Shown: piece by piece, positions 1,896-62,730 of the stretch | How positions within the stretch are numbered: position 1 is the stretch's first letter | Layout of the letters: each line of letters opens with the position of its first letter | Assembly: GCA_034440575.1 (NCBI GenBank) | Contig: JAOTOL010000904.1 | Coordinates: forward strand, 62,001 to 126,000 | Origin: Imbricaverruca yamaguchii | Lineage: Eukaryota > Arthropoda > Thecostraca > Neoverrucidae | Reading direction: 5' to 3' | Length of the DNA stretch: 64,000 nucleotides | Notes under the pieces: generated by a model | What the model saw: the letters and a program-made list of their open reading frames with translations, nothing else | Database searches by the model: none | Told to the model about the DNA's origin: nothing | Translations under genes and position numbers: made by a program

Positions 1896-3594
1896 GCGTC
1901 AGGACTATTCGTTACTATGTTCATATTTATCCTCTGGCATATGCATTGACCCACATATACGTTCATACGGGCCGTTCTCGGAACCAACCAGTCACGAGTA
2001 TGAATTATGCACTGGTGTTCTCGAACTTTAGCGTTTGTGCGTAAGCTAATATGTAGTTAACATTTGCTCTGAACTGGAAACAGAGGTCAGGCGATATTTT
2101 TTATTTCTATGAAATTTGCTTATTGCAGCCAATTATGAACTCTACCATACCATACCACATGCAGCTTACAACATTATTCTAGCTAAATCTTGCCAACATC
2201 TTCACGTTTGGACGTCATCGCACGCCGACCATACCCCAGATGTCTTCCGATGTCATTCCTCCAGTTGACGTTGTTGCTTCCGATGGCGATGCTGCTGTAA
2301 ACGTTTTTGCTTGGTTTTAGAACTTTGATTCACTTCTTGGATGACAGATATCACAGATGAGATCATACCATAGAGATGTTTCAAGACAAGTCTAAAACGG
2401 CTACGTGATCTAGGCCCATCGAGCATATGACTTTTCTCGATCTGAGCTTTTCTGAAGCGGGTGACACCAATTACCACATGAAGCCTCCATTATTATCCGT
2501 GAAGTCAATGGAAAAGAGGATTCAGGATGCGGGAGTTAGCTCACGGATGTTGTCCCAGGGATTAAAGAAGATAAATGTACTGGTACCATGTGAGTCGTTG
2601 GGAGAGCATGCGGGTGACCTTCAGTTGGCTGGGAGTTCCAGGCATACCACAGTTCTAAGAACCTTGCTTCTGCACAGGACATACATTTACACGGCTAAGT
2701 CAGGTGCTACACCATGGTCAGTGTTACCAACGCCACCACCGCCACTAGCCCATTACAATGTTCAGTCAGATACTACGCCACATCGTACAAAATTATTAGC
2801 ACTTTTGCTGCTAATCGCATGCTAAATGGCTGCTTCCACCAACGCTGTTCGCTAGGGATGCTAGTAACAAGCACCACTCAAGCAATACCAAGCACCATAT
2901 GTACTATTCGGCTGGAAAGGGGCTAATTCTAGCCTGAAGATGCTAGACTGTAAGAATGAGGATGCTTGATCCTTGCAGCCATGGATGTTATGTCAAGCAG
3001 TCCAGAATAATTATACTGCTTATATCTAGCACTATTACAGTTCGTTTTTTTTTTGGCGGGAGTTTGAACGCTCCATGGCTGCTCACAGTTAGCACCTGGG
3101 TAGTTAAAATGAGCAGCGAGGAAAAATGGCGTGAACATTAGCACCTTAGCGCTGCTTAACGAAGCAAATGCGAACTGTCGGCCATTTTGGTTTGGAATAC
3201 GGTGGCGTGCAGATCGGTGCCGTTGTGCGGCAAGATTTCAGCGAAAAAGAGAAGTATGGCTGAGATTAAGTGAACCTCTGAATCCAGTCACAAGCCGGTC
3301 ATAGTCGGTACAAGGTGGGTGTGTCTTCATACCAAATGCATGTCCACATGGTATAAATATAAGTATGTCAGCATCCTACCAACCTCGCTGCATATACCCT
3401 TGAAATTACGGGCGCTCTATGACTTACGCAGTTGATGCACACTTAAGCTACAATAGCCAACATACCTGAGCTTGACAACATATAATAACTGGCGAGCTTA
3501 GCAAGGCATATGTGGTATTGCACTCGGACAAAGAAACTTAATTTATATTTTATAGCATCATTATTCAGCTATGGACACTGACATAAAGACATAA
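1896..3594. other. Unassigned DNA holding one solo satellite unit
   Basis: No gene is recognised. Positions 2710-2781 hold a single diverged unit (atggtcagtgttaccaacg...) of the 63/66-bp satellite that forms the large array at 13269-14345. The flanking part (about 2800-3145) is rich in tagcacc/ggtgcta words, as is the DNA just before the large array. Confidence 0.6.
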
Positions 3595-3683
3595 AACATA
3601 ACAAATTAGTGCAACTATGAGCCACAAGGGCCCTTCTTGGTTGCACTCTGTACACTGAACCAGTTGCCCACCAAATCTGTCAA

Positions 3684-4895
3684 TCAGCCCTCCCTGTAAT
3701 ACTGAAAAGCAAGCCCTCTATTCTTATAATGATTGTCTATGCTGTTTTTAAAGATGTTCAATGTGCTGCTACTGACAACGTTTTCTGGCAGCTGGTTCAA
3801 GTATTCTACTACCCTGTTGGTGAAGAAAGTTTGCCTTAACCTTGTTCTGCTGTGGTTAACTTTAATCTTGAATTCATGACCCCTAATTGCATCATTTCTG
3901 TTCAATTCAAACATTTTCCCAAGGTATCCCCTCTCCAGACCATGTAAAAATTTAAAGACCTCGATGAGATCTCCTCTCAGCCTTCTATATCTAAGTGAAA
4001 ACATATTCAATTTCTTCAATCTTTCCTCATATGCCAGGTTGCTTATGCCATTAACTATTTTTGTAGCCCTCTTTTGTACTCTCTCTAAAAGCCAACAATC
4101 TTTTTCATTGCTAGGAGACCAAGCTTGGATGCAGTATTCCAAATGTGGCCTGACATATGCACAATAAAGCTTCCTGATCACTTCCTCACTTCTGTATGAT
4201 ACATTCCTATGTATTGCCCCAGGCATTCTCAGTGCCTTTTTCCTGGCTTCCTTGGTGTGTTCTGATGGCCCCAGTTTTGTGTTTAGAATAACACCTAAAT
4301 CCTTCTCCTGTTGAGTCACTGATTGCACTTGGCCACCCATCAAGTATGGAGCCTTCATATGCTGCTTACCTACATGCATGATTTTGCACTTATCAAAATT
4401 AAATTTCATTTGCCATTCTTCGGACCACTTCACAAGTTCGTCCAAGTCTTTTTGCAGCGAGACATGCTCATCTTGACCTGCTATTGCCCTAAAGACCTTC
4501 AAATCATCCGCAAATTTCAAAACTTTACTGCTTAGGCCACTTTCAATGTTATTTACAAATATAATGAACAGTAGTGGCCCCAGTACTGACCACTGTGGGA
4601 CTCCACTAAGAACATTTTGCCATGATGACTTTGTACCATTTAGCATCACTCTTTGCTGTCTATCTGAAAGCCACAACTCTATCCATTTTAAGATCCTACC
4701 TGCAATACCATGGGACTGAAGCTGTATCATTAACCGTTTATGGGGTACTTTGTCAAAGGCCTTACTAAAGTCAAGATATGCTACATCAACCTGATTTCCC
4801 TGATCAAATTGTTCTGTGGCGAAGTTCAAAAAGTCCAAGAGGTTTGTGAGACACGATCGTCCTTTTCTAAACCCATGTTGAGTATCTTGAATCAA
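3684..4895 (-). pseudogene. LINE reverse transcriptase domain, 403-codon remnant
   Basis: RNA-templated DNA polymerase part of ORF2, which would copy LINE RNA at a nicked target. Visible motifs, in order: HGFRKGRSC, DVAYLDFSKAFDKVPH (motif A aspartate), SGVPQWSVLGPLLF (motif B, where the usual PQG glycine is tryptophan), LKFADDLKVFR (the catalytic FADD box), then the thumb and C-terminal region with RPHLEYC and RRLRGDLIEVFKFLHG. This is the longest open piece of the element. The upstream ORF2 parts are in other frames, so the copy is inactive as it stands. The conserved-position residues here match the family consensus, which makes this the reference for polarising changes in the plus-strand copy. 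Confidence 0.88.
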
Positions 4896-4922
4896 TCTGC
4901 TACCTTCCAGATAACTAACTAT

Positions 4923-5652
4923 TTAATCCTTGATAATTGATTTAAGTACCTTGCAGACTAGGGATGTGAGACTTGCTGGCCTATAATTTTCAACTTTCCC
5001 TCTTTCTCCTTTCTTGAAAATAGGAACTACATTTGCCCTTTTCCAATCAGTTGGAATTTCATTTTGTGAAACTGATCTACAAAATGTTATACTAAGTGGA
5101 AATGCCAGTTCCTTTTTTAGTTTCCCGCAACACCCTAGCATAAATATCATCAGGTCCTGCTGCCTTGTTTTGCTTTATTTTCATAATATGATTGTAAACA
5201 ACATCACTATGAATGAGATCAACATAATTTGTCAGATCCCATGTCACTGAACTATTGTGTACGGTCGGCAGATTGGTCATATCTTCCAATGTAAACACTG
5301 ATTTAAACTGCTTGCTCAGCTCCTCAACCATCTCACTATCCTCACCCAATGTAGTCTCGTTTACTTCCAGTGGACCAATTGTGCTAGAAATGTTACTCAG
5401 CTTGTAGAAACTAAAGAACTTTTTACTGTCCCCATTACAGTTTCTATCTAAATCCAGTTATCTTGCTCGTTTTGCCGCTCTGGTTTTTTGCGTCACAGTG
5501 TCTCTAGCTTTTCGATACGCTTTTATATTAACGATATTTGAGGCTTCTTTAAAGACTCTAAATGCAGTTTTCTTGGCCTTAATTGCTTTTATCAAGTCTG
5601 GTGTAAGCCATGCTTTCCTACCCTTCTTTTGCGTCATTGCTTGTGGGGACAT
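4923..5652 (-). pseudogene. LINE ORF2 linker and early RT, frameshifted
   Basis: Three overlapping minus-strand pieces in different frames (5652-5458, 5349-5092, 5150-4923) continue ORF2 between endonuclease and RT. Recognisable words include KIKQNKAAGPDDIYARVL and IPTDWKRANVVPIFKKG, followed by NYRPASLTSLVCKVLKSII. These are standard fingers-region motifs of CR1-like RTs. A stop and at least two frame changes separate the pieces. Confidence 0.82.
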
Positions 5653-6680
5653 GTCTAATCTGAATTTCCTTCAAGTAAGATTTGAACTTTTCCCACATTT
5701 CACAGGCGTTTAAATTGGAGAATTCTTCTTCCCATCTGATGGCACTTAAAGCCGCTCTCATGCAGTCAAAGTCTGCTCTGTTGAAATTTGGAACCTTTAC
5801 CAAATTATCCTTGATAATTTCCCCTACATTTGCCTTGAATCTAACTATGTTATGGTCACTTCTTCCCAGAGTTTCGCCTACAGTCAAGTCTTGAACCAAG
5901 TCACTTAAATCCGAGAATACAAGGTCCAAGAATGAACCATGCCTGGTAGGTTCCGATACAAACTGGTGTAAGAACAGGTCCTCTTCAAGGCATTTCCTAA
6001 ACATTTTGCATGATGGGGAGCCAACACCAGCATTTTCATAACCTTTTAGATTAAAGTCACCAAGAATAAGGCACTTCCTCGTAAAGTTTCTACTGATTTC
6101 CTCACAAATCACCTTGTCAAGCTCCAGTTGCTGAAAATGTGGCAGGGTTCCTGATCGGTAGAAAGCTCCTAACCTAAGAGTATTGCTGTTGCCTTTTCCC
6201 ACAGCGACATCAAGCCAAATGGACTCCACAGACATTTTTATCCCCATCTGCTACTTTTTGAGAACTGAATAAGCTATTCATATAGAGCATTACACCACCC
6301 CCTTTCATTGCTGGACCCCTATTGCACGAAAACATATTGTATCCCTGGATCTCATAGTCCTGCAAGTTATCTCCAAAATACCCTTCACTGACCCATGCCT
6401 CCGTAATGCAGACAAAATCTGGTTCCTCCTCAGCAACATAACACTTGAACTCATCAAATTTGGAACGGATACTCTGAGCATTAAACATCATACACTTAAC
6501 AACTGCTCCATAACCACCTTTGGCTTTTTCATACTGAGGAGTTCTTTTATCACTAGATGAACTATCACTCTGTCCCCTTGAACTGCTGCTGTCCCTATTT
6601 GCAGACTTTGAGGTTATATTGCCTTGGCTGACACTATTGGAATATTTCTGAGTTGGCAATGCAATTTCATCCCTCCCCAC
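5618..6680 (-). pseudogene. LINE AP-like endonuclease domain, two-frame remnant
   Basis: Two minus-strand frames (6680-6210, then 6247-5618) encode an exonuclease/endonuclease/phosphatase-type domain that would nick target DNA. Visible: MMFNAQSIRSKFDEF, DFVCITEAWVSEGYF (catalytic glutamate), GGGVMLYM, LGAFYRSG, LILGDFNLKGYE (GDFN box), SFLDLVFSD and GRSDHNIVRF (the SDH box). The frame change falls between GGGVMLYM and the LDVAVGKG stretch. The N-terminal Ser-rich segment (about 6530-6680) may be the end of ORF1 or the start of ORF2. Confidence 0.85.
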
Positions 6681-6739
6681 CCCATTTCCCAGTTTCCCTG
6701 AAGGACATGCTCGTACACGTTTCCTTCTTGGGAGTTAGT

Positions 6740-20719: not shown

Positions 20720-46418
<25,699 letters not shown>

Positions 46419-51607: not shown

Positions 51608-52850
51608 GAACAATTTGATCAGGGAAATCAGGTTGATGTAGCATATCTTGACTTTAGTAAGGCCTTTGACAAGGTACCCCATAAACGGTTAGTGATACAG
51701 CTTCAGTCCCATGGAATTCCGGGAGCATCTTAAAATGGATAGAGTTGTGGCTTTCAGATAGACACCAAAGAGTGATGCTAAATGGTACAAAGTCATCATG
51801 GCAAAATGTTCTTGGTGGAGTCCCCCAGGGGTCAGTACTGGGGCCACTACTGTTCATTATATTTGTAAATAACATTGAAATTGGCCTAAGCAATAAAGTT
51901 TTGAAATTTGCGGATGATTTGAAGGTCTATAGGGCAATAACAGGTCAAGATGAGCATATCTCGCTGCAAAAAGACTTAGACGAACTTGTGTAGTGGTTCG
52001 AAGAATGGCAAATTAAATTTGATTTTGATGAGTGCAGGATCGTGCATGTGGGTGAGCAGCGTATGAGGGCTCCATACTTGATGGGTGGCCGGGTGCTATC
52101 GGTGGCTCAACGTGGGGGGGGGGATTTGGGTGTTGTTCTGGACACAAGGTTGGGGGCATCGGAGCAGACCGGGGAGGCCGGGAGGAGGGCGGTGGGAGTG
52201 CTCGGGGCGATGGGTGGGAGTGTGTCATGCGGAGGTGAGGAGGTCATCGGGAGGCTTTGCTGTGCATGTGTCGGGCCGCATTTGGAGTGCTGCATCCAGG
52301 CTTGATCTCCTGGCTATGAAAGGGATTGTTGGCTTTTGGAGAGAGTACGAGGGAGGGCTGCAAGAGTGCTTAATAGCTTGGGCAATCTGGCATGTGAGGA
52401 GGGATTGGGGAGGTTGAATGAGTTTTCACTTGGATATGGAAGGCTGAGAGGAGATCTCATCGAGGTCTTTGAATTTGTCCATGGAATGGAGAGGGGATGT
52501 CTTGGGGAAGTGTTTGAATTGAACGGAAGTGATGCAGATGGAGGTCATAGATTCAAAGTTGAAGTTGACCACAGCGGAGCGAGGTTGGGGCGGACTTTCA
52601 TCAGCAACAGGGTGGTGGAGCACTGGAGCCAGCTGCCGGAGAGCATTGTCAGTGGCAGCACGTTGAGCATCTTTAAAAGCAGCATGGACAATCATTGTAG
52701 GAATGGAGGGCTTGCTTTTCAGTGTTGCAGGGAGGGGTGGTTGACGGATTGGGGGGGGGGGGGGGCAACTGGTTCGGTGTAATGAGTGCAACCAGGAGGG
52801 GCCCTTGTGGCTCGTAGTTGCACTGATCTTTTATGTCTTTATGTCTTTAT
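51608..52850 (+). mobile_element. CR1/L2-like LINE 3' copy with A-to-G hypermutated 3' two thirds
   Basis: Same family as the minus-strand element at 3597-6735. It starts at the RT motif A region (DVAYLDFSKAFDKVP), keeps LKFADDLKVYRAI, and runs to the same 3' tail (tgtctttatgtctttatg). From 51616 to about 52010 it differs from the other copy by few, mixed changes. From about 52020 to the end it is saturated with A-to-G changes on the sense strand, turning lysines to Glu/Gly, Arg to Gly, Tyr to Cys and Asn to Ser at conserved RT positions. Small indels and stops also break the frame. Confidence 0.92.
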
Positions 52851-53105
52851 GAACCCAAACAATACTCCTCAGCCTCATATACCCACGCCAACAATCAGAA
52901 GCACTGTATGCCACACCACAACACACATGTCTTCACTGCGCCACAGCTGAATCTTAGCCAGTATTTAAAATGATTTGGAATGCTTACGTGACGTCACCAT
53001 ATATTCCAAAATCCTGGTAGATTATACTATAAATCTAGCACATTTCTGCTTATGTCACTCGGGCTGGAACTAGAAAACCTACTAGGTTCTGTTGTACCCT
53101 TTAGT
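52851..53105. other. Unassigned, no gene recognised
   Basis: No features seen beyond short frames. Confidence 0.4.
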
Positions 53106-59206: not shown

Positions 59207-61552
59207 TTACGCGAGTCCGAACACCCGCTCTCGCCCAGGGTTCTGAAGGATGAAGGCAGCCGCGACCTGGTCGACATCCACGCGAGTCAGGCGGTCGCGG
59301 TGGACGTGGCACACAGCTACTGCGTTGAGGCGCGCCTGCCCCATTGTGACGCGCAGCCATGTCCTCAGCCGGCGGAGCGTACTGAAGCTGCGCTCAGCCG
59401 TGGCGGAGCTGGCCGGCAGGGTGAGGAGCAGGCGCGTCAGCTTCACTGCGTCCGGGAACATCTTGCGTGTGGGCTCATCCAGGTTCCGGATTATATCTGC
59501 CGCTTCTTCGAGGCTTTCCGGCCGCCTGCTTTTAAACAGGACGCGTAGTTGCGGCGCCAGGTCAGCAGCTGACAGCTCCGCTGACCAGGGAGAGCTGCTC
59601 AGGAACTCTCTGAGGCCTGCGGCGCCACCGTCAGCCAGCAGCGCCTGCTCCGCCTTGGCGTGATGCTTGACGCCTTCCTGGTCCAGGCGGTCACTCAGCT
59701 GGATGCAGGCGGTGTCGATGGCCAGCAGCAGCTCTCGCCGTAGGTACTGTTGGATGTCAGCTGGCTCGTCTGGTTCACCGCCGTCGCCGTCGGCGTTGCT
59801 GGCTGAAGCGCGCTTCTCCCGCGGCAGCACGATTGGCACGTCGCAGCCTGATCCCTTCACCTGCTGCAGGCACTCCTGGATGGCTTCGTCCGCCCCGTCG
59901 CGCTGAGCCTGCAGCTGCTGCTTGGCGGACTCGGCTCCACGCAGAAGCTGGGAGACAGTGCAGCGGGAACCCTGGACGCTGCGGTTAAGCCGGTCCAAAG
60001 GCGACAGCACTGCACGCGCCAGGTGGAGCGCCAGCAGGGTTGACTCCTTGCGCAGCTGGGCGTGAAGGCCCGCCGCTCTCGCCGCCACGTGGCGACCAGC
60101 GCCCAACTCCGCCACCGTGGCCAGTACCTCGCTGTACTGGTTGATGGCAGCATCCACTGCCTGTAGCCGCACTGTCCACCTGGTGGGGCAGAGCGGCCGC
60201 AGCTTCCTTGGCACCTCCTCCCCCTTGCCCACGCACAGCTGCCGGAACTTCTCCCGGAAGGTGAGGGACTGGCCGAAGAGGCGGCCCAGCTCGTTCAGTG
60301 TGTAGAGGGCGTTGCGGATCAGCTGGGAGGCGTCGGCGCTCTCCTTCGCCACTAGGTTGATGCAGTGGGCGCCGCAGTGGACAAAGAGCGCTGCTGGCTG
60401 TTTGCCGCGCAGGATGGCTTGGGCGCCGCGGAAACCTCCCGCCATGTTTGCGGCCCCATCGAAAGTGAGGCCGCGAAGGCCAGCCAGGCGGAGGTTCAAG
60501 CGCTGAAGCGAGTCCTCGATGATGCGCGCCAGAGCAGCACCCGTCGTCGACGGCGTCTCGTGAAACCCCACGAACTCCTCGTGGACTTGGAGGGCCTGGT
60601 CTGTATACCGGATGCACACCGACTGCTGCTCGTGGCCGCTGAGGTCTTGGGTGCCGTCGACGATCACGGAGTAGCAGAGGTCGCCGGCCGCACTGTCTTG
60701 GATCTCCGTGATGATCTCTCGCAGCACCTGATGACTGGCGAGCAGCAGCAGCTCATTCTGACAGTCTGAATGCGTGAATCGCTCCCTTCTTTGCAGCCAC
60801 TGCTGTAGCTCGGGGCAGTCGGCGGCTCGCAGCTGCAGCAGCTCGATGAAGTTGCCCTGGTCCTGTTCATGCCCTCTGAGGGCCAGACCCTGTCTGCCTA
60901 GGTGCACGAGGCTGGTGATTATCTTCACGAGGCAGGCCCTGTTGGTCTGCTGCTGGCGCTGATTGGCCGTCTGAATGACGTCTACGATCGGGCGGCTCGC
61001 AGTTGGGAGGTTGTCCCCGTGATCTGTGGAGATGGCGTGCTGCTTAAACTTCTCCAGCGCCTTCTTCCAGTTGTTGAAGCCGCCAGCCCAGAAGCCAGGT
61101 TTCTGAGCTGGGTTGGCGGTGCCGCGCTCGTGCGCGCGGACGCAGTAGAAACATAATACTTTTCCACGGACTAGGTCGAAGTGCAGCCATGGGTACTGCT
61201 GGTACCAGTGATCATGGAAGACCACAGTCTTGCCTTGAAGCACCTGCTTAGGGATCGTCCTAGCTGGCGGCTGATTTGGCGTCTCTAAATCCAGGAGGCG
61301 CCATGGCGACTGCTGCGGCGATGATGTTGAGTCACGACTGAGACCAGGATCTGGAAGAAAAGGAGGAGGAAGGGCATACAAATGGCCAGAAAATGGATGT
61401 GTGGGAAAATCACTCGCGTCGAACGCACGTTTTAGACGACGAGATGGTGTTCCTTCATTGACCACTGGTTTCACAACTCTAGCTATAGCTCCAGCACAAC
61501 TCCAGCACAACTCCAAAGAAAACCCCAAGAAACTTTGCGAGCGGAAAGCCAA
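59207..61552 (-). CDS. hAT transposase (TTF-type zinc finger, DUF4371-like core, C-terminal dimerisation region), 781 codons
   Basis: Cut-and-paste transposase, uninterrupted. Visible in order: an N-terminal TTF/BED-like zinc finger at about residues 108-180 (PWLHFDLVRGKVLCFYC with downstream histidines); the RNase-H-like core with YSVIVDGTQDLSGHEQQ (aspartate near 299), GLTFDGAANMAGGFRGAQ (aspartate near 365) and VHCGAHCINLVAKES; an all-helical insertion; then the C-terminal LPASSATAERSFSTLRRLRT (glutamate near 720) with RLNAVAVCHVHRD. All three acidic catalytic residues expected for hAT are present. The layout matches the ZMYM/THAP-repressor-like hAT group. The start methionine chosen is the first in frame; the real protein may begin at a later one or use an upstream exon. 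Confidence 0.93.
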   Translation of the reverse strand: MAFRSQSFLGFSLELCWSCAGAIARVVKPVVNEGTPSRRLKRAFDASDFPTHPFSGHLYALPPPFLPDPGLSRDSTSSPQQSPWRLLDLETPNQPPARTIPKQVLQGKTVVFHDHWYQQYPWLHFDLVRGKVLCFYCVRAHERGTANPAQKPGFWAGGFNNWKKALEKFKQHAISTDHGDNLPTASRPIVDVIQTANQRQQQTNRACLVKIITSLVHLGRQGLALRGHEQDQGNFIELLQLRAADCPELQQWLQRRERFTHSDCQNELLLLASHQVLREIITEIQDSAAGDLCYSVIVDGTQDLSGHEQQSVCIRYTDQALQVHEEFVGFHETPSTTGAALARIIEDSLQRLNLRLAGLRGLTFDGAANMAGGFRGAQAILRGKQPAALFVHCGAHCINLVAKESADASQLIRNALYTLNELGRLFGQSLTFREKFRQLCVGKGEEVPRKLRPLCPTRWTVRLQAVDAAINQYSEVLATVAELGAGRHVAARAAGLHAQLRKESTLLALHLARAVLSPLDRLNRSVQGSRCTVSQLLRGAESAKQQLQAQRDGADEAIQECLQQVKGSGCDVPIVLPREKRASASNADGDGGEPDEPADIQQYLRRELLLAIDTACIQLSDRLDQEGVKHHAKAEQALLADGGAAGLREFLSSSPWSAELSAADLAPQLRVLFKSRRPESLEEAADIIRNLDEPTRKMFPDAVKLTRLLLTLPASSATAERSFSTLRRLRTWLRVTMGQARLNAVAVCHVHRDRLTRVDVDQVAAAFILQNPGRERVFGLA

Positions 61553-62730
61553 GAAACTGGTTACGCTAAACCAGTTTCTCAGCTAGGAAACTGGTTTAGA
61601 GCAAATGGTTTCCTAGCTAGGAACCGGCATTGATTTGCCCCCAAAATTTGGCTCTGAACAGGGGCCTAAAATACTGTTCGGAAGTGAGATGAGTTCAAGT
61701 TTCAGAGCACTTCCCAGCACAAACAATCCCATTTTACCTTTCGACCTTACATACATTTGATTTGACGGCAAGTATGTCTAGTTGCTCATACAAGGGACGA
61801 TCGTTTCTGTGTTTCTATGCATCGCACCATTTATCAAAAAAGGGAAAAGATGAAAGTGAGAATCAATCGATACAAAAATGAAAGATCTGAAAGCGAAAAT
61901 AGGGTTACCTTCGAACCCAGTGAAAAGGCACTGGGTACTAGGGGAGGGTACCTGCGGGGCCAATATCTCACTTAAAAAAGGGGAAAATAGACATTTTCAT
62001 ATCGAGACAACAACAGCACCACATAATGGGCGACAGGTGCGTTATAAACTCACCAGTGCAGGCGCGCTTGGAGGGTGGAGGTGTAACAGGAGCTGAGGCT
62101 CCGGTGGAGGAGGATGACGTGGCAGCTGGACGAGGGACTAGTGAGGCTGACTGTGGCTCCTGGGAAGTGGTGAAACATATGTGAGTTGGAAAGTTGACAG
62201 AAAAGTTAACAGGGGTAGGTGAGGCAGATCACATGGGGGCATCTGAGTTCTCCCAACTTCCCTGCCTGAGTGCACCACTGACAGTTTTGTGTGCATATAT
62301 GCAGCCTTTATGGCGCATGCGACTGTTTAGACCCATTAATTGGCCATGCCTTTGGTTTCTCAACCCTAGACATGATGACTGATAAAACTGATCTGGTACC
62401 TACATACAGCAGTGCAGCCAGGAAATTTGTAAGGGGGGAGGGAAGTGGGTGGGGCTAACACAAAAGGGGCCCCGACAGTGCTAGATGGGCCCATCTCCCA
62501 GGGAGGCCCAGGCCTCTATGTCTCCCCATCAATGACTCAGCAACCAGGGGGGGGGTGCATTCCCGACATTTTGAGGGGCCCGGCGGCTTCCCTTCCAAAA
62601 CTCACCTTCTTAGAAAAAAAAGATCGGATGTCCATGGTGAGAGCAAGTCTCAGGCAGTAGGTGGCTATTAGGAGACACCGGCACTGAATTGTTTATTTAT
62701 ATGTCCAAGGCCCTAATGGACTGTTCAGAC
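61553..62730. other. hAT interior upstream of transposase, including a 13-bp hairpin
   Basis: 61566-61599 is ctaaaccagtttc, an 8-base loop, then gaaactggtttag, followed by the related ggtttcctagctaggaacc. It lies just upstream of the transposase start and could be regulatory or a transposase site. A poly-G run lies near 62550. No second gene is recognised. Confidence 0.6.

Follow-up and report, generated by a model that had tools for sequence, protein, structure and literature searches.

A LINE copy with an A-to-G hypermutated 3' part in Imbricaverruca yamaguchii, a very probable trace of ADAR editing

A truncated LINE copy in Imbricaverruca yamaguchii carries a dense tract of A-to-G changes on one strand over its 3' part. 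Very probably, the copy descends from a LINE RNA whose 3' ∼0.8 kb lay in a duplex and was hyper-edited by ADAR before the RNA was reverse transcribed into the genome. The sequence-only reading of this DNA had proposed ADAR-type deamination followed by reverse transcription, and the proposal is supported by the type of change, its strand and polarity, the sharp edge of the tract, the neighbouring bases, the lack of a matching subfamily among the copies listed and a second copy of the same kind. From this pattern we infer that ADAR is the enzyme, that an antisense RNA was the partner and that editing preceded reverse transcription. The window, i.e., the whole 64,000-nucleotide stretch analysed (positions 62001-126000 of its contig, in a 767-Mb assembly), holds two copies of one LINE.

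The LINE and its copies in the window

One of the two copies is hypermutated and the other serves as the reference:

51608..52851, plus strand: 5'-truncated LINE copy (3' part of the reverse-transcriptase frame and 3' end) with a frameshift and stops, aligning over its whole length to 4814-3582 on the minus strand
51608..52019, plus strand: unedited 5' part of this copy, 3 A>G at 129 usable A sites and 16 other differences in 412 columns
52021..52825, plus strand: A-to-G hypermutated tract from first to last A>G, 120 A>G at the 274 usable A sites from 52020, with ADAR-like neighbours
52005..52030, plus strand: 5' boundary of the tract, the interval that holds the ten best positions in a change-point analysis
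52114..52123, plus strand: run of 10 G, made up of A>G sites and inserted bases in the alignment
52751..52765, plus strand: run of 15 G, partly common to another genomic copy (L027) on copy comparison
3582..4814, minus strand: reference copy for comparison, the 3' part of a longer LINE, from the whole-length alignment
3684..4922, minus strand: open reverse-transcriptase frame of the reference LINE, 412 aa (Pfam RVT_1, E 5e-27)
5618..6734, minus strand: endonuclease part of the reference LINE, two overlapping frames with weak Pfam matches

The reference copy has the features of an APE-type non-LTR retrotransposon (LINE), with an RVT_1 match well above its cut-off and an upstream endonuclease whose matches are weak and lie under the curated cut-offs (Exo_endo_phos_2, 24.1 bits against 27.4; Exo_endo_phos, 19.6 bits against 24.5). 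The genomic copies listed likewise vary in 5' extent and share one 3' end, as APE-type LINEs do. In a protein search the closest relatives of the reverse transcriptase are unnamed sequences (94% and 84% identity), and the named relatives are mostly bird and turtle proteins at ∼39-49% identity. The latter are presumably CR1 elements; their reverse transcriptase is of the same broad kind, but the present LINE belongs to a distinct family. No relatives were found in the viral contigs searched, and a collection of bacterial and archaeal genomes gave a single match, a LINE-like piece with 72% protein identity (L001, 3-324). It lies at the contig end of a turkey-gut bacterium assembly and is probably host contamination.

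Elsewhere in the window, a hAT-type transposase frame (59207-61582, minus strand, 791 aa stop to stop) has DUF4371 and hAT dimerisation matches, and its best named relatives are barnacle proteins at ∼61% identity. A frame with a DOMON domain (44024-44977, plus strand, E 8e-21) is likely a piece of a host gene broken up by repeats. A long tandem-repeat stretch (25697-27257) is open in several frames. Rfam and tRNA scans of the window gave no matches.

The hypermutated tract

The sequence-only reading had aligned the copy to the reverse complement of 3597-4400. The two copies do align, but the shared span is longer and runs end to end, from 51608-52851 on the plus strand to the reverse complement of 3582-4814. 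The same reading had counted roughly 70 A>G in about 385 bp from 52020, a bias running on toward the 3' end and only a few mixed differences upstream. The recount bears it out on all three points: exactly 70 A>G fall in 52020-52404, the tract reaches 52825 with 120 A>G in total, and the part before 52020 differs from the window's other copy by 3 A>G beside 4 G>A and 12 substitutions of other kinds. Against that same copy, 52020-52851 shows 6 G>A, 4 T>C and 4 C>T beside the 120 A>G, and other substitutions at A are few (A>T 4, A>C 1). About 44% of the adenosines in the tract are thus changed, and the share of A sites that are now G differs sharply between the upstream and downstream parts (Fisher p=5.5e-21). 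Differences other than A>G are equally frequent on either side of 52020 (16 in 412 columns vs 38 in 820, p=0.66), so the tract is not more diverged save in A>G. The asymmetry of A>G over T>C (p=9e-31) amounts to the one-strand A>G clustering that marks ADAR hyper-editing.

A neighbour model fitted to the tract predicts 58.1 A>G in the 5' part, where 3 are observed. Density within the tract is uneven, with 2 of 16 A changed in 52440-52499 (5.4 expected) and 2 of 8 after 52800 (4.5 expected), which counts against the editing explanation. So does the result at the insertion ends of the 51608-52851 copy, where no clear target-site duplication was found, just a 6-bp shared word. The two G-runs are not simple edits. 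Both hold inserted bases, and since part of the run at 52751-52765 is common to L027, that run partly predates editing. A>G editing may have lengthened G-rich stretches, which then slipped.

The 5' edge

A sharp 5' boundary near 52020, noted from the letters of the two copies, is recovered by the change-point analysis, which places the best change point at 52021 (posterior 0.36). Sharp edges, present in both hypermutated copies, fit a duplex substrate. The 5' part and the tract have similar self-folding energies per base (-0.23 and -0.24), so a hairpin within the LINE is not indicated. The copies listed include no antisense partner that ends near 52020, and this counts against the editing explanation.

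Two long copies of the LINE stand head to head with almost no spacer at another locus (L032, 1231-3274), with more inverted pieces adjoining; this is the one inverted LINE pair among the copies listed. Judging by this arrangement, a transcript across the pair could fold into a ∼1 kb hairpin, a natural ADAR substrate. As a source of the edge the pair was rejected, because its duplex would start near consensus position 242 while the edge lies at ∼412.

Neighbour preferences

The bases flanking the changed adenines follow the order expected of ADAR, a test that the sequence-only reading had proposed. Changed fractions in the tract by 5' base are T 38/51 (.75), A 48/92 (.52), C 25/69 (.36) and G 9/62 (.15) (p=8e-10), and by 3' base G 47/78 (.60), C 16/39 (.41), A 33/90 (.37) and T 24/67 (.36) (p=0.006). 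The order is therefore T>A>C>G on the 5' side and G>C>A∼T on the 3' side, with 5' G depleted (p=8e-8) and 3' G enriched (p=7e-4). Taking the genomic majority as the ancestral state leaves the order unchanged (5'.69,.55,.35 and.10; 3' G.58, C.44, A.35, T.33). Human ADAR1 acting on a ∼800-bp dsRNA is described as preferring U>A>C>G on the 5' side and G>C∼A>U on the 3' side (PMC11276115), and the order found here agrees with it on both sides. An excerpt of a survey across animals gives a 3' G preference in mammals and reptiles and 3' A in amphibians and invertebrates (PMC5625713); on that account the tract follows the mammal and reptile pattern, not the amphibian and invertebrate one.

Polarity and coding effects

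The 51608-52851 copy had been read as the derived one, and outside proteins agree. At the 69 amino-acid-changing codons that differ by A/G only, the closest outside protein (P0001, which shares 94% identity with the reference frame) agrees with the A state at 66 and with the G state at 1, while 2 codons match neither state. The more distant proteins P0002-P0005 favour the A state over the G state by 59:2, 40:0, 44:1 and 41:2, the remaining codons matching neither. At the 13 codons that differ without A>G, P0001 agrees with the 51608-52851 copy at 8 and with the reference at 5. Since relatives carry the A-state residues while the other codons split 8:5, the A>G changes arose in the 51608-52851 copy, which apart from them stays close to the family.

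Of the edits that fall in coding sequence within the tract, 83 are nonsynonymous, against 85.6 +/- 3.0 expected under neighbour-matched placement, and the three codon positions are hit 41, 37 and 36 times. The edits ignore the code and no codon selection is seen, whereas a replicating subfamily should show constraint. As a set, the edited residues occur in none of 130 related LINE proteins, including those from a search with the edited frame that was aimed at a G-rich subfamily; the highest share in any of them is 18%.

Other copies of the family

The genome search for copies of the LINE gave 44 matches, with 40 of 5049 initial candidates scored. A majority sequence was built from 31 other copies (30 loci less the 51608-52851 copy itself, together with a second copy in L027 and the window's other copy). 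Relative to this majority of the copies listed, the 51608-52851 copy has 156 differences, comprising 120 A>G, 1 T>C, 4 G>A, 7 C>T and 24 transversions; 4 of these A>G lie before 52020 and 116 after. A whole subfamily with the same G-rich 3' sequence had been named as the finding that would overturn the editing reading. No such G-state subfamily is present among the copies listed: 64 of the 116 edited sites are G in none of the 31 copies and 39 are G in one. The sole listed copy that shares many edited sites, 37, is L003, which is itself A>G-hypermutated and lacks the subfamily markers of the 51608-52851 copy.

These markers are seven substitutions of an older set of copies that comprises the window's other copy, L009, L005, L025, L027 and, for most of the markers, L008 and L023. 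They lie on both sides of the edge, at 51847 and 51948 before it and at 52023, 52269, 52480, 52521 and 52647 after it. Position 52150 was discarded as a marker because it is common to another set of copies.

As controls, 43 copies of ∼990 nt or more were available among those listed, i.e., 42 distinct ones (L042 was left out, being L003 again) and the other window copy. Two of the 43 are A>G-hypermutated; all 43 were chosen by likeness to an A>G-rich query, so no frequency can be derived from them. The highest A>G count in the other 41 is 9, in L039, alongside 8 T>C. The opposite T>C bias, which had also been put forward as a test, occurs in none of the 43, a set in which the same choice by likeness under-samples T>C-rich copies. 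Identical difference counts in several copies (L028-L031, L033) indicate that the long copies are not all independent.

Background A>G, at 53 distinct sites in 30 copies, does not avoid a 5' G (5' T 19/80, A 13/139, C 13/101, G 8/90) and falls on either side of 52020 (14 of 133 A sites upstream, 39 of 277 downstream). Taken together, the 30 other rows hold 97 A>G against 42 T>C, along with 89 G>A and 59 C>T. The mild excess of A>G over T>C, which may reflect low-level editing or ordinary mutation bias, counts against the editing explanation. Three other, non-LINE repeat pairs checked in the window have no A>G bias.

A second hypermutated copy

The best-scoring other copy in the genome search carries the same kind of tract:

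C731:27276-28505, minus strand (2730-1500 within L003): second A>G-hypermutated copy of the LINE, on another contig
4506-3276 within L042, minus strand: the same copy again

The LINE at L003 continues for at least 3.1 kb. Over 1.23 kb this copy differs from the majority at 58 positions (47 A>G, 1 T>C, 1 G>A, 3 C>T and 6 transversions). Its A>G changes are confined almost entirely to the window equivalent of 52067 to 52705, with 46 there and 1 in the equivalent of 51608-52019; the ∼1.84 kb of L003 that precedes the edge has no more than 2 A>G. Changed fractions by 5' base are T 19/39 (.49), A 19/82 (.23), C 7/56 (.12) and G 1/54 (.02), and by 3' base G 20/63 (.32), C 8/34 (.24), A 12/81 (.15) and T 6/53 (.11). 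Both hypermutated copies thus show the ADAR order 5' U>A>C>G with G avoided and a preference for 3' G (L003 p=0.009).

L003 carries 0 of the 7 older-set markers. As the 51608-52851 copy carries all seven, the edits in the two copies were most likely made as independent events. The sites common to both number 37 of the 46 in L003, against 29.7 +/- 2.6 under neighbour-matched placement, an excess that is biased upward because L003 was found through its likeness to the 51608-52851 copy. A common duplex structure may add to the overlap, and a shared history is the less likely reading.

Mechanism and alternatives

In the proposed sequence of events, an antisense LINE RNA ending at ∼52020 would have formed a duplex with the 3' ∼0.8 kb of the LINE RNA. 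Host ADAR would have turned about 44% of the adenosines in this part of the LINE RNA to inosine. The edited RNA would then have served as template in target-primed reverse transcription, in which inosine is copied as G, and the 5'-truncated cDNA would have become a fixed genomic copy. Candidate partners would be a transcript that crosses a 5'-truncated LINE copy in antisense, or an antisense transcript with its far end at the edge. Truncated copies of this kind retain the 3' end, and their 5' limit is arbitrary; the first kind of partner would give exactly the geometry seen here. Editing begins at almost the same position in both copies and runs toward the 3' end, which suggests that the antisense partner is recurrent and ends at this position.

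One alternative has ADAR act on DNA. ADARs can deaminate DNA in RNA:DNA hybrids, and editing of the sense DNA strand paired with antisense RNA, during or after insertion, predicts the same strand, the same neighbours and a sharp edge. It is very unlikely here, as the event would have to occur at two loci, each time over the same 0.64-0.8 kb, and the last edits end within the element (52825 of 52851). A related alternative keeps ADAR editing of the RNA and changes the meaning of the edge at 52020, which would mark a jump of the reverse transcriptase from edited to unedited LINE RNA instead of the duplex end. Template switching during LINE insertion is known and would also leave a sharp edge, but the older-set markers continue across it, and in L003 the edge lies within ∼50 bp (first tract edit 52067 vs 52021), a coincidence that chance jumps would not produce. 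This origin of the edge is unlikely.

A normal diverged subfamily, or a recombinant with one, would account for the tract without any editing, and the 51608-52851 copy does belong to an older set through its seven markers. These markers, however, stand on both sides of the edge, and the older set itself is not A>G-rich. The flat rate of other differences across the edge, the lack of codon constraint and the lack of a protein relative with the edited residue set weigh against a subfamily as well, and the copies listed already contradict it; it is extremely improbable. Other mutators, namely APOBEC/AID, GC-biased gene conversion, polymerase errors resembling somatic hypermutation and an error-prone reverse transcriptase, are all able to cluster mutations. 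APOBEC acting on cDNA would yield G>A, yet the tract has 6 G>A against 120 A>G and so no sense-strand G>A signature. Gene conversion would yield A>G and T>C alike (120 vs 4), and a polymerase that errs at A should also produce A>T and A>C, seen 4 times and once. None of them predicts that 5' G is depleted while 3' G is enriched and that two copies share one edge, and a role for any of them can scarcely be credited.

ADAR editing of LINE RNA before its reverse transcription would have a wider consequence, offered here tentatively and as somewhat doubtful. Germline ADAR might restrict an active LINE family by mutating it, with a recurrent antisense RNA that covers the 3' ∼0.8 kb only. The genome would then archive A>G-marked copies that are dead on arrival, from which ADAR specificity and the antisense source could be read without an RNA sample.

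Comparison with known systems

Genomic records of APOBEC editing of retroelements are already known; in 2011 Carmi reportedly described such 'DNA editing' as recorded in genomes. Two LINE insertions that bear the mark of ADAR would demonstrate that RNA, once hyper-edited, can still be retrotransposed and then retained in the genome. If so, sequenced animal genomes would be a readable archive of RNA editing on their own retroelements, and the strand-specific mark would locate natural LINE double-stranded RNA and its antisense partner. No earlier report of a fixed ADAR-edited LINE copy was found among the matches listed from the open literature, which is no proof of priority. A 2016 review states, in the part available, that roles of ADAR editing in Alu subfamily evolution and in mutational suppression of Alu retrotransposition had not yet been determined, though they were logical to assume (PMC4982230).

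According to an excerpt of PMC2873906, G-to-A clusters in retroelement DNA reflect APOBEC editing and A-to-G clusters in RNA-derived traces reflect ADAR editing. APOBEC editing resembles the present case in that a deaminase leaves clustered changes of one type that persist in retroelement DNA, but its record is G-to-A, via cytidine deamination of cDNA, whereas the present LINE has A-to-G with ADAR neighbours. In that excerpt, A-to-G clusters in DNA form the comparison class, and ADAR is deduced from RNA-derived traces (PMC2873906).

Among targets of ADAR itself, the hypermutated Drosophila sigma virus, as far as the available text describes it, likewise has regional A>G clusters, avoidance of 5' G and many nonsynonymous changes, and the share of A changed in a defined region, ∼44% here, is as in ADAR-hypermutated viruses (PMC2790459). 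The edited sigma virus genome is RNA with clusters of at most 21 changes, whereas here retrotransposon RNA would have become fixed as chromosomal DNA. Suppression of LINE-1 by ADAR1 is described as editing-independent in work cited in the accessible part of PMC5974252; ADAR meets LINE RNA in both cases, and in the present LINE the editing itself would be recorded. Hyper-editing of repeat transcripts across animals shares ADAR neighbours and repeat targets with this LINE, but the edits reported in the excerpt are in transient RNA, whereas those described here lie in heritable DNA copies (PMC5625713).
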